A DNA stretch of 64,000 nucleotides, from contig WFXD01000020.1 of the NCBI GenBank assembly GCA_015490795.1, positions 1-64,000 on the forward strand, in the 5' to 3' direction. A model generated the notes under the pieces. The model worked only from the letters and a program-made list of their open reading frames with translations. It was not told where the DNA came from and ran no database searches. The translations under genes were made by a program, and so were the position numbers. This document shows, piece by piece, positions 15,415 to 25,617 of the stretch (within the stretch, counting starts at the first letter, position 1; each line of letters opens with the position of its first letter). Source of the DNA: Gammaproteobacteria bacterium (GTDB lineage Bacteria; Pseudomonadota; Gammaproteobacteria; Chromatiales; Chromatiaceae).

Positions 15415-18234
15415 ATGAACAGACCCGACGTGACGGAAGCTGCGCTGCTGGAGATTGTGCAGCGGCTGCTTCAGGAGCTGTACCCAGGGAGATCCTCCAC
15501 GGCAATCACCACCGACAATACCCTGGAGCATGATCTTGGGTTTGACAGCCTGGGCCGGATGGAGCTGCTCTCCCGGCTGGAGCACAAATTTCAGCGGCAT
15601 CTGTCAGAGGAGGCGTTTGCCGCCGCTGAGACCCTGCGGGATCTCATCCAGCTGTTACAGGATGCACCCTCCGGCATACCGATGGAACGGGAGGTGGAAA
15701 CGGCTCTCCGGCAACCCCGGCAGAGGATCTCGGCGCCGCACCAGGCACGCACACTACAGGAGGTGCTGGCCTGGCATCTGGATCATCAGGCTGAGCGGGT
15801 ACATATCCACCTCTATGGCGAAGGTGATGAGCCGCAGGCGATCAGTTACCAATCCCTCTACGAGGGCGCCTGCCGGGTGGCCACCGGGTTGCAGCAGCAT
15901 GGGCTTCAGCCGGGTGAGACCGTGGCCATCATGCTGCCCACCGGTCGCGGCTATTTTTTCAGCTTTTTGGGTATCCTGCTGGCCGGCGGCATCCCGGTGC
16001 CCATCTACCCGCCTGCCCGCCCCTCTCAGATTGAAGACCATCTGCGGCGGCATGTCCGTATTCTCAATAACGCCCAGACCACGCTGCTGATCACCATCCC
16101 AGAAGCAAAGCTGGTGGCCCATCTGCTCAAGTCACATGTCAGCAGTTTGCGGCAGGTCATTGCGGTGGAGGAGCTTGCCGAAACCCAGGGCGGCAGGCAC
16201 GGCTTCGGTGCGGCCAAGGGTTCGGATATTGCCTTTTTGCAGTACACCTCCGGCAGCACCGGCAGCCCCAAGGGGGTGATGCTGACCCACAGCAATCTGC
16301 TCGCCAATCTCCGCGCCATGGGTGAGGCGGTTAAGGTGACCTCTGACGATGTGTTTGTCAGCTGGCTGCCGCTCTACCACGATATGGGGCTGATCGGTGC
16401 CTGGCTGGGCAGTCTCTACTTTGGTTTTCCACTGATTGTGATGTCGCCATTGGCCTTTCTGGCACGCCCCCAGCGCTGGCTGTGGGCCATTCACAACCAT
16501 CGTGGCACCCTCTCTGCCGCTCCCAACTTTGCCTATGAACTCTGTCTGCACAAGATAGACGAGAGCGATCTGGAGGGTCTGGATCTTAGCTCCTGGCGCC
16601 TGGCCTTTAATGGGGCAGAGCCGGTTAGCCCCGGCACCCTGCGGCGCTTCAGTGAGCGGTTCTCTCCCTTTGGGTTCCAACAGCAGGCCCTGGCCCCCGT
16701 ATTCGGGCTGGCAGAATCATCCGTTGGGCTGGCCTTTCCACCACCGGGTCGAGTCCCACTCATTGACCGCATTCAGCGGCAACCCCTGACGACATCGGGT
16801 CGAGCCATCCCGGCGGGCGATGCAGAGAGGCAGGTATTGGAGTTTGCCGCCTGTGGCCAACCGCTGCCGGGCCACCCCATCCGGATCGTGGATGCTGACG
16901 GGCGGGTGCTTCCGGAGCGCCGGGAGGGATATTTGCAGTTTCACGGCCCCTCTGCCACTTGCGGATATTATCGAAACCCGGAGGAGAGCGAGCGCCTGTT
17001 TGATGGCCCCTGGCTGAATACAGGTGATCTGGCCTATATCGCTGAGGGCGATCTCTACATCACCAGCCGGGTCAAAGATCTGATCATCCGGGCAGGGCGC
17101 AATATCTACCCCTATGAGCTGGAAGAGGCTGTGGGCAACATCCCGGGCATTCGCAAGGGTTGTGTTGCCGTGTTTGCCACTCTGGACCGGAGCACGACAA
17201 CGGAGTCGGTAGTGGTTTTGGCAGAGACCCGGGAGACCACGCCAGAGCGCCTGGAAAAACTCCAGGATCAGATCAACATCCTGGCCTCTGATCTGCTGGG
17301 GATGCGGCCCGACAAGGTGCTGCTGGCGCCACCCCATACCGTACTGAAGACCTCCAGTGGAAAGATCAGGCGCAGTGCCTGCAGAGAGCTGTATGAACAG
17401 GGCCGGATGGGGCAGACCCAACAGGCTGTCTGGTTACAGATTGCAAATGTCGCCCTGTCAGGCGTGGTGCCACAGCTGCGCAGATGTGGCCGGACACTGC
17501 AAGAGTGGCTGTATGCCGCCTATGCCTGGGGGCTGTTTGGCTGCCTGGCCCCCATCATCTGGACATTGACCATCAGCCTGCCCCGGCTCTCCTGGCGCTG
17601 GCGGGTCATTCATGGCGGCGCCCGGCTACTGGCTTCTCTGTCCGGCATAAAGATAGCCGTCTCCGGGTTGGAAAATCTTCCCCCGGGATCGAACTATATC
17701 CTGGTGGCCAACCATGCCAGCTACCTGGATGCCATCATCCTGGCTGCGACCATTCCTGAAGATTGCTGTTTTATCGTAAAGTCAGAGCTGCAATCCAACC
17801 CGATAGCCCGTCTCTTTTTACAGCGCATTAATGCTGTATTCGTGGAGCGTTTCGATCAGCAACAGGGGCTGGCTGATACAGAGCAGCTGGAGAGACTGGC
17901 CCGCTCCAGCAGCCAGCCGTTTCTCTTCTTTCCAGAGGGCACCTTTATTGATGCGCCGGGGCTGCTCCCTTTCCGCATGGGGGCATTTTCTATCGCAGCC
18001 AAGGTGGGGCTACCGGTTATACCGGTTGCCATCAAAGGCAGTCGATCCCTGCTGCAAGGGGGCAGCTGGCGCCCCCGCCACGGGGCTGTAACCGTTACAG
18101 TGGGAGAGAGGATTGATCCGCCAGGCACCGGTTGGAGGGCCGCCATTGCCTTGCGTGACCGTGCCAGAGAGATGATTCTCAAATATTGTGGTGAACCGGA
18201 TAGTGGGTATACTGCGTTGCGGAAGCCAACCTGA
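15415..18234 (+). CDS. Three-domain fusion: acyl carrier - fatty-acyl-AMP ligase - PlsC acyltransferase
   Basis: This 939-residue protein joins three activities. Residues 1-90 form an acyl carrier domain with the phosphopantetheine attachment Ser45 in LGFDSLGRME. Residues about 110-660 form an adenylating enzyme with the core motif YTSGSTGSPKG (277-287) and the features of fatty-acyl-AMP ligases (PIYPPARPSQ, NTGDLAYI). After a hydrophobic stretch (about 700-725), residues about 730-930 form a PlsC-type acyltransferase with NHASYLD (766-772) and FPEGT (839-843). I infer that a fatty acid is activated as acyl-AMP, loaded on the built-in carrier, and passed to a lysophospholipid or other hydroxyl acceptor at the membrane. 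It is a single gene between dapF and dnaA. The acceptor is unknown. Confidence 0.85.
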   Translation: MNRPDVTEAALLEIVQRLLQELYPGRSSTAITTDNTLEHDLGFDSLGRMELLSRLEHKFQRHLSEEAFAAAETLRDLIQLLQDAPSGIPMEREVETALRQPRQRISAPHQARTLQEVLAWHLDHQAERVHIHLYGEGDEPQAISYQSLYEGACRVATGLQQHGLQPGETVAIMLPTGRGYFFSFLGILLAGGIPVPIYPPARPSQIEDHLRRHVRILNNAQTTLLITIPEAKLVAHLLKSHVSSLRQVIAVEELAETQGGRHGFGAAKGSDIAFLQYTSGSTGSPKGVMLTHSNLLANLRAMGEAVKVTSDDVFVSWLPLYHDMGLIGAWLGSLYFGFPLIVMSPLAFLARPQRWLWAIHNHRGTLSAAPNFAYELCLHKIDESDLEGLDLSSWRLAFNGAEPVSPGTLRRFSERFSPFGFQQQALAPVFGLAESSVGLAFPPPGRVPLIDRIQRQPLTTSGRAIPAGDAERQVLEFAACGQPLPGHPIRIVDADGRVLPERREGYLQFHGPSATCGYYRNPEESERLFDGPWLNTGDLAYIAEGDLYITSRVKDLIIRAGRNIYPYELEEAVGNIPGIRKGCVAVFATLDRSTTTESVVVLAETRETTPERLEKLQDQINILASDLLGMRPDKVLLAPPHTVLKTSSGKIRRSACRELYEQGRMGQTQQAVWLQIANVALSGVVPQLRRCGRTLQEWLYAAYAWGLFGCLAPIIWTLTISLPRLSWRWRVIHGGARLLASLSGIKIAVSGLENLPPGSNYILVANHASYLDAIILAATIPEDCCFIVKSELQSNPIARLFLQRINAVFVERFDQQQGLADTEQLERLARSSSQPFLFFPEGTFIDAPGLLPFRMGAFSIAAKVGLPVIPVAIKGSRSLLQGGSWRPRHGAVTVTVGERIDPPGTGWRAAIALRDRAREMILKYCGEPDSGYTALRKPT

Positions 18235-18488: not shown

Positions 18489-18497
18489 TGTGGATAA
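18489..18497 (-). promoter_or_regulatory. DnaA box upstream of dnaA
   Basis: TGTGGATAA is the exact complement of the consensus DnaA box TTATCCACA. It lies about 145 bases before the dnaA start, where it could serve autoregulation of dnaA or belong to the origin. Confidence 0.65.
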
Positions 18498-18639: not shown

Positions 18640-20004
18640 TTGAATCTTTGGCAAAGGTGTATCGATCACCTTCAAGCAGAACTTCCTCCACAGCAGTTCA
18701 ATACCTGGATCAGGCCTCTGCATGCCATCCAGGAATCCAGCCGCATTCGTCTTTTGGCACCCAATAAATTTGTACTGGATTGGGTTAATAACCACTATAT
18801 CGAGCTTATCAACTCCTTTTTCACCCATCTCGAAGAGGCGAGCAATCTGCTCGTCGTTCTAGAAATTGGCAGCAAGCCACGCAAACGGGAAGCCGGTGCA
18901 ATCAATGGCCTTCAGCACGTCCAAAAAAGCCGCGCGCCTCAGCAGACCAAAAACAGCCAACAACCAGCTGAGACCTCCTTAGAGAGCAATATCAACCCGA
19001 ATTTTACTGTCGATACCTTTGTCGAAGGTAAATCCAACCAGCTGGCAAGGGCCGCCGCCATCCAGATTGGTGCCAACCCGGGTACTGCCTATAATCCACT
19101 CTTCATCTACGGTGGCGTTGGCCTGGGAAAAACCCATCTGCTGCATGCTGTTGGCAATATCATCCTGAGTAACAACCCATCATCACGTGTGGTTTATCTG
19201 CACTCCGAGGCCTTTGTTGCCGAAATGGTAAAGGCATTACAAAACAACACGATAGAAAACTTTAAAAAACGTTATCGATCCGTCAATGCGCTGCTTATTG
19301 ATGATGTCCAGTTTTTTGCTGGCAAAGAGCGCTCACAAGAGGAGTTTTTTCACACCTTCAATGCGCTCTTCGAATCACAGCAACAGATCATTCTAACCAG
19401 TGATCGTTTCCCAAAAGAGGTCACAGGGCTGGAAGAGCGACTAAAATCAAGATTTGGCTGGGGTTTGACAGTCGCTATCGAACCTCCTGACCTTGAGACA
19501 CGGGTCGCTATTCTCAAACGGAAGGCTCAACAGCTGTTTAATGTAGACCTGCCCAACGAGGTCGCCTTCTTCATTGGTAAACGGGTGCGATCCAATATCC
19601 GGGAGCTTGAAGGCGCTCTGCGCAGGATTATTGCAAGCGCCCGTTTTACCGGCAGACCCATATCCCTCGATTTTGCCAAAGAGGCGCTAAAAGATCTGCT
19701 GGCGGCGCACGACAAGCAGGTCACGATTGAAAACATTCAAAAAACCGTGGCTGAATACTTCAAGATACGTGTTAGCGACCTTCTATCCAGTAAGCGCAAC
19801 CGCTCTATCGCCAGACCACGGCAAATCGCCATGTCACTTGCAAAGGAGTTAACCAACCATAGCCTACCCGAGATTGGTAATGCCTTTGGTGGTAAGGACC
19901 ATACGACAGTTTTATATGCGACACGAAAAATTGCGGCGCTGAAAGAGAGTGACACACGAATTGCTGAAGATTATGGAAACCTGTTAAGAACCCTTACAAA
20001 TTGA
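18640..20004 (+). CDS. dnaA: Chromosomal replication initiator DnaA
   Basis: DnaA binds DnaA boxes and melts the origin. The 454-residue protein has the N-terminal DnaB/DiaA-interaction domain (1-85), a variable linker, the AAA+ domain with Walker A GGVGLGKT (158-165) and Walker B LLIDD (Asp221, Asp222), and the C-terminal DNA-binding domain with the signature [15 protein letters not shown]. The start is a TTG at 18640 with a GGGGAG ribosome site about nine bases upstream; homology starts right there ([26 protein letters not shown]), so no ATG start is available. A rare start codon may keep DnaA levels low. Neighbours dnaN, recF and gyrB follow in classic order. Confidence 0.98.
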
Positions 20005-20013
20005 TGTGGATAG
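20005..20013 (-). promoter_or_regulatory. Near-consensus DnaA box
   Basis: TGTGGATAG begins right after the dnaA stop codon. It differs from the complement of TTATCCACA at one position. Confidence 0.55.
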
Positions 20014-20049: not shown

Positions 20050-20058
20050 TTATCCACA
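20050..20058 (+). promoter_or_regulatory. Consensus DnaA box
   Basis: TTATCCACA is a perfect DnaA box, about 50 bases before the AT-rich stretch of the putative origin. Confidence 0.7.

Positions 20059-22463: not shown

Positions 22464-25613
<3,150 letters not shown>

Positions 25614-25617
<4 letters not shown>

Follow-up and report, generated by a model that had tools for sequence, protein, structure and literature searches.

A conserved ACP–FAAL–PlsC fusion protein of Gammaproteobacteria, a candidate CoA-independent acyltransferase with its own carrier domain

Introduction

Fatty-acyl-AMP ligases (FAALs) make acyl-AMP and load holo-ACP, and proteins of the PlsC family acylate a lipid hydroxyl from acyl-ACP or acyl-CoA. 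An AMP-forming fatty acid ligase and a PlsC-type acyltransferase are found together in one protein in Aas and LplT-Aas. Escherichia coli Aas uses the ACP of the cell, bound as a subunit, so that the acyl group is carried as acyl-ACP, and the enzyme probably acts on membrane lipids. In Aas and LplT-Aas (NF005959, NF006386) the order is PlsC–ligase, with or without an MFS module; Aas lacks a built-in carrier domain, and FAAL features are absent from its ligase.

Known FAALs, such as EcFAAL (3pbk), LpFAAL (3kxw), FadD32 and the olefin-synthase FAAL (7r7e), act with PKS/NRPS or with separate ACPs. To explain why FAALs refuse CoA, Patil et al. (2021, PMC8460268) point, besides the insertion recognized earlier, to a FAAL-specific helix, to prolines at an alternative pocket and to three bulky residues within the canonical one. 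In one sentence, the same authors also note the fusion of certain bacterial FAAL-like domains with lysophospholipid acyltransferases, as a case of recruitment independent of PKS/NRPS; this sentence names neither an organism nor an ACP domain and says nothing of distribution or function. The FAAL–acyltransferase fusion was previously known only from this passing mention of 2021, without a function, and we found no paper giving a product or an assay for it.

Another system that joins an acyl ligase, an ACP and an AGPAT-like acyltransferase in one protein is ElbD of Myxococcus xanthus, together with the ElbD-like proteins; ElbD has an N-terminal fatty-acyl reductase (FAR) domain, and the protein is needed for ether lipids (PMC9131029). 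Here, we describe a gene that combines ACP, FAAL and PlsC domains, in this order, and compare it with these systems.

Results and Discussion

Domain organization of the fusion protein

The window analysed here is the whole stretch of 64,000 nucleotides at positions 1 to 64,000 of contig WFXD01000020.1 (assembly GCA_015490795.1, Chromatiaceae). The gene at 15415–18234 (+) of the window is a single intact ORF that starts with ATG, has no internal stop and encodes a protein of 939 amino acids. The first-pass annotation had placed a carrier domain (Ser45), a FAAL core (residues 277–287) and a PlsC acyltransferase (NHASYLD and FPEGT) in this one gene, and both the positions and the Pfam domains agree with this assignment. 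The features that we refer to below are the following:

15415..18234 (+), ACP–FAAL–PlsC fusion gene (ORF and full-length homologues)
15445..15657 (+), acyl carrier (PP-binding) domain, residues 11–81 (PF00550, E 1.6e-9; four helices in the model)
15547..15549 (+), Ser45, expected 4'-phosphopantetheine attachment site (62/62 homologues; start of the second carrier helix in the model)
15748..17409 (+), fatty-acyl-AMP ligase domain, residues about 112–665 (NCBIfam FAAL models, PDB FAALs, Foldseek)
16243..16275 (+), adenylation core YTSGSTGSPKG, residues 277–287 (sequence motif)
16363..16386 (+), WLPLYHDM, residues 317–324, with Trp317, Pro319 and Met324 equivalent to W224, P226 and M231 of EcFAAL (alignment to 3pbk)
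16447..16467 (+), FAAL-specific helix, residues 345–351 (aligns to T252–R258 of 3pbk; helix 345–350 in the model)
16528..16530 (+), Phe372, equivalent to F279 of EcFAAL (alignment to 3pbk, conservation)
16720..16854 (+), FAAL-specific insertion region, residues 436–480 (gap-free alignment to EcFAAL; length comparison)
17362..17364 (+), Lys650, A10 catalytic lysine in KTSSGK (65/65 homologues)
17464..17643 (+), two predicted membrane-associated helices, 684–721 and 725–743, N-terminal to PlsC (model; hydropathy peak near 702–704)
17650..18036 (+), PlsC (lysophospholipid acyltransferase) domain, residues 746–874 (PF01553, E 8.6e-30; nearest model TIGR00530)
17710..17730 (+), NHASYLD, residues 766–772, with catalytic His767 and Asp772 (both 65/65)
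17929..17943 (+), FPEGT, residues 839–843, acceptor-binding motif (Glu841 and Gly842 65/65)
24892..25617 (-), canonical stand-alone PlsC adjoining a HAD hydrolase gene and representing a further acyltransferase of this genome, separate from the fusion (profile match)

The Pfam matches to the PP-binding (11–81), AMP-binding (124–519, E 1.5e-68) and acyltransferase/PlsC (746–874) families all exceed the curated cut-offs, and the AlphaFold model of the protein has a pLDDT of 85 and a pTM of 0.72. The carrier domain is recognizable from its PF00550 match, from Ser45 lying within a GFDSL motif and from four helices in the model. The PlsC domain displays the catalytic motifs of the PlsC/AGPAT family, HX4D (NHASYLD) and EGT (FPEGT), which it shares with stand-alone PlsC, as it does the N-terminal membrane helices. 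It differs from stand-alone PlsC in having its own acyl-activating and carrier domains, and in the sequence FPEGTF, the usual PlsC motif being FPEGTR. The nearest model of the fused PlsC is the 1-acylglycerol-3-phosphate (AGP) acyltransferase model TIGR00530, with 95.4 bits, just below its cut-off of 102.95 (a subfamily-domain model), whereas lyso-ornithine-lipid acyltransferase models match weakly, with 56 bits.

The order of the three domains is not due to chance: homologues with the same order exist at 42 to 86% identity. The fusions mentioned by Patil et al. very probably have the same or a similar architecture.

The ligase domain carries FAAL-specific features

Several lines of comparison bear on the class of the ligase. 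In the NCBIfam ranking, PRK09192 comes first with 418 bits, FadD21, FadD32 and FadD28 score 299–269 bits, and these FAAL scores are well above those of Aas and most CoA ligases, the Aas family score being 167 bits against a cut-off of 1221 for NF006386. The nearest solved structures found by PDB sequence search are all FAALs (E about 1e-89), and FAALs are also the top Foldseek matches of the AlphaFold model. Like the known FAALs listed above, the fused ligase displays the FAAL fold and motifs, the insertion, the FAAL-specific helix and a plugged CoA pocket; it differs from them in having an ACP fused to its N-terminal side and a PlsC domain to its C-terminal side.

In the alignment with EcFAAL (3pbk), residues W224, P226, M231, F279 and P107 correspond to W317, P319, M324, F372 and P200 of the fusion protein. 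Thus, both the plug of the canonical CoA pocket (W317, M324 and F372) and the prolines of the alternative pocket (P319 and P200) are present, and across 54 homologues each of the five is either invariant or conserved to at least 90%. The FAAL-specific helix (residues 345–351, facing T252–R258 of EcFAAL) is also there and is helical in the model. As to the insertion, whose presence the first-pass annotation had singled out for checking, the interval from the A5 Glu to Gly481 spans 46 residues in the fusion protein and in every homologue tested, versus only 18, 29 and 33 residues in three further ligases encoded in the genome; these are of the CoA/Aas type, include Aas itself and lack the pocket plug as a set.

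On these grounds, the ligase domain is classed by sequence as a true FAAL. Loss of FAAL features, which would have pointed to an acyl-CoA synthetase, is not borne out, and we rejected this identity on account of the insertion, the FAAL-specific helix and the pocket residues. The same features argue against the use of CoA by the ligase and in favour of a transfer of the acyl group to ACP.

Conservation, distribution and genomic context

Among 65 aligned proteins, Ser45 is kept in every one of the 62 that cover this position; Lys650, His767, Asp772, Glu841 and Gly842 are each present in 65/65. Against four relatives, dN/dS was 0.12–0.23 for the whole gene and stayed below 0.35 when the domains were computed one by one; each of the three is under purifying selection. 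The invariance of the catalytic residues, together with these low ratios, indicates that the three functions are maintained as a unit.

A survey of the domain order, proposed beforehand, recovered it, conserved, on plasmids and in 46 of the 274 Gammaproteobacteria sampled (about one in six), as full-length or near-full-length relatives; the corresponding figure for genomes sampled across Pseudomonadota is 6 of 399 with a strict threshold. Relatives also occur in metagenome-assembled genomes (MAGs) named Sedimenticola and Candidatus Thiodiazotropha and in others labelled Geopsychrobacter and Acidiferrales (the MAG relatives include L017 and L019, the latter cut by a contig end). Plasmid-borne relatives come from Methylobacterium nodulans, Sinorhizobium sojae, Cupriavidus, Paraburkholderia and Photobacterium, and the plasmid records that name the intact form call it only 'AMP-binding protein'. 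Altogether, the fusion is conserved and patchily widespread, and not rare.

In the window, the fusion gene is followed by dnaA (at 18640) and then by dnaN, recF and gyrB. DnaA-box-like sites flank dnaA at 18489–18497, 20005–20013 and 20050–20058, two of them, including the one at 18489, being perfect, and the GC skew turns at about 18–20 kb of the window; the region around dnaA is probably the chromosomal origin. The location of the gene beside the replication origin, reported in the first-pass annotation, is therefore upheld, but the link is accidental: dnaA adjoins the fusion in none of the 65 other fusion loci examined, so that the location is incidental and a functional tie with the origin can be rejected. 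The dapF–DUF484–xerC block upstream of the gene is common to only the four nearest relatives.

Gene clustering around 66 loci revealed no conserved operon partner of the fusion and no PKS/NRPS neighbour or dedicated biosynthetic gene that travels with it, which suggests that the fusion is probably self-sufficient. At several loci, a gene resembling AMP-forming acyl-CoA ligases directly adjoins the fusion; in three cases (L010:10834-12672, L062:6069-7922 and L068:10939-12777), the neighbour is long-chain acyl-CoA-ligase-like, lies at most 90 bases away and is on the same strand. On a Cupriavidus plasmid (L143), an AMP-binding gene overlaps the start of the fusion, which is clustered with genes for acetate–CoA ligase, pyruvate dehydrogenase E1/E2 and ACP; a second Cupriavidus plasmid (L142) looks similar.

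These data bear on the idea that the FAAL–ACP part supplies a loaded fatty acid to another pathway, with the PlsC domain as a passenger or acting separately. FAAL–ACP pairs do normally feed PKS/NRPS, according to Patil et al. (PMC8460268), but the fusion has no conserved PKS/NRPS neighbour, its PlsC domain has invariant catalytic residues and is under purifying selection, and an ACP–PlsC protein devoid of FAAL exists (see below), all of which make a passenger PlsC highly improbable.

Other lipid genes of the genome

Also encoded in this genome is a 1149-amino acid LplT-Aas fusion with MFS, PlsC and AMP-binding modules (NF006386, 1499 bits; G000:C95, L108:5262-8711); the genome thus holds two different ligase–PlsC fusions. 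Across the 274 genomes, Aas is found in 22/46 genomes with the ACP–FAAL–PlsC fusion versus 104/228 without it (p 0.87), i.e. the two proteins are neither exclusive nor linked. Both this independent distribution and the co-occurrence with LplT-Aas oppose the fusion being a simple substitute for Aas, and we rejected this role. FadE, which is encoded in this genome, occurs in 39/46 fusion genomes versus 123/228 others (p 7e-5 for the 274 genomes, a value that ignores kinship); read in this way, with kinship ignored, the association means that the fusion is enriched in genomes that handle free fatty acids.

Could the fusion be an ElbD-like ether-lipid enzyme? Besides the shared set of ligase, ACP and AGPAT-like domains, one can invoke the ElbD homologues from outside the myxobacteria, which mostly have no FAR domain (PMC9131029), and the ElbD matches counted in Proteobacteria MAGs (PMC11868695). 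However, according to Pfam, the fusion protein has no fatty-acyl reductase domain, and no NAD_binding_4 protein was found in this genome at E <= 1e-20; such a reductase is present in only 3/46 fusion genomes, the fusion being independent of reductases in the 274 genomes (p 0.78). Without a reductase there would be no fatty alcohol for the ether bond. We consider this identity very unlikely and dropped it, the fusion being set apart from ElbD on the published description of the latter; some of the ElbD-like proteins that lie outside myxobacteria and mostly lack the reductase may be the fusion described here.

The profile models for PlsY and PlsB match nothing in this draft genome (estimated 98.85% complete), which is the one argument for the fusion supplying the first acylation, as a glycerol-3-phosphate acyltransferase, in their place. 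Against it, PlsY is found in all nine other fusion-bearing genomes checked via named loci, including those of the closest relatives (78–86% identity), and in 40/46 fusion genomes of the class sample, so that the fusion is not a PlsY substitute in general. Moreover, plsY adjoins tsaD in a close relative, and in the present assembly the contig stops 155 bases past tsaD (G000:C109, L139), a segment in which no PlsY reading was found. The missing plsY is therefore likely to reflect an assembly gap, although this is unproven, and we discarded the replacement of PlsY/PlsB as extremely unlikely.

A proposed CoA-independent route to membrane lipids

On the basis of the domain set, the intact catalytic residues, the FAAL hallmarks, the conservation and the purifying selection described above, we propose that the fusion is a membrane-bound, ATP-driven, CoA-independent acyltransferase with its own carrier, which would salvage free fatty acids into (lyso)phospholipid (estimated probability, roughly 0.55). 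The reaction would comprise four steps: (i) the FAAL domain would adenylate a free fatty acid to acyl-AMP; (ii) the acyl group would pass to the phosphopantetheine arm that the fused ACP carries on Ser45; (iii) at the membrane, the acyl-ACP would swing across to PlsC; (iv) PlsC would esterify the acyl group with a hydroxyl group on a precursor of glycerophospholipids, for which a lysophospholipid or lysophosphatidic acid is the likeliest candidate. Since the pocket residues argue against the use of CoA and an ACP is present on the same chain, the simplest route would lead via Ser45 to the lipid. The transfer within one polypeptide, the nature of the acceptor and the salvage role are what we infer.

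The protein would thus be an Aas-like salvage enzyme in which a FAAL replaces the Aas ligase and a built-in carrier replaces the ACP of the cell. It would work like Aas without being a member of the Aas family, given its score, its reversed domain order and its FAAL-type ligase. The first-pass annotation had suggested that the fusion could be a complete route, free of acyl-CoA, in one polypeptide: the three domains and the FAAL features are in keeping with this, but the presence of LplT-Aas implies that the fusion is not the sole route of lysophospholipid repair in this genome.

Which lipid receives the acyl group is the least certain part of the scheme: the fused PlsC is best matched by AGP acyltransferase, and less well by the lyso-ornithine-lipid acyltransferases. 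Instead of salvage, the FAAL could activate a particular fatty acid and the PlsC domain acylate a non-standard acceptor, for instance a lyso-aminolipid or some other lyso-lipid. This would fit the usual dedication of FAALs to specialized lipids, as stated by Patil et al. (PMC8460268), the weak lyso-ornithine-lipid acyltransferase matches and the patchy, partly plasmid-borne distribution; in addition, as LplT-Aas is already a general salvage enzyme, a second enzyme may have another substrate. Yet AGP acyltransferases remain the better match (95 versus 56 bits) and no dedicated biosynthetic gene accompanies the fusion, so that we regard such a specialized role as rather unlikely. A bolder version, a self-contained machine that keeps the acyl group covalently on one polypeptide from activation to the membrane and delivers it to an acceptor other than an ordinary lysophospholipid, yielding an undescribed lipid in sulphur-oxidizing and symbiotic bacteria, seems doubtful.

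If the proposed salvage mechanism is true, free fatty acids could enter membranes independently of CoA, with no need for a diffusible acyl-CoA or acyl-ACP, FAALs would have a role outside PKS/NRPS, and a testable function would be at hand for a protein present in roughly a sixth of the Gammaproteobacteria sampled that goes by a generic name on plasmids. Another conceivable use is as a compact catalyst with which selected fatty acids could be attached to lipids. As the component parts are ordinary, the surprise is moderate.

Natural variants of the fusion

One genome (G264) encodes, alongside the full fusion, a 409-amino acid ACP–PlsC protein without ligase (L110:7512-8741). The existence of this protein suggests that the carrier serves PlsC, and hence that the fused carrier may dock with the PlsC domain as well as with the ligase. 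Another genome (G228) contains a stand-alone PlsC (L109:8070-8834) that is 45% identical to the fused PlsC, with HX4D and EGT intact; its gene lies directly downstream of hydrogenase-like genes. The N-terminal extensions of two homologues (L090 and L095) look like start-site artefacts. Finally, a conjugative plasmid of Sinorhizobium fredii carries a 761-amino acid form that lacks the N-terminal half of the AMP-binding domain (L145:5938-8223), and this shortened form sits among stress genes encoding Hsp20, FtsH and a universal stress protein.
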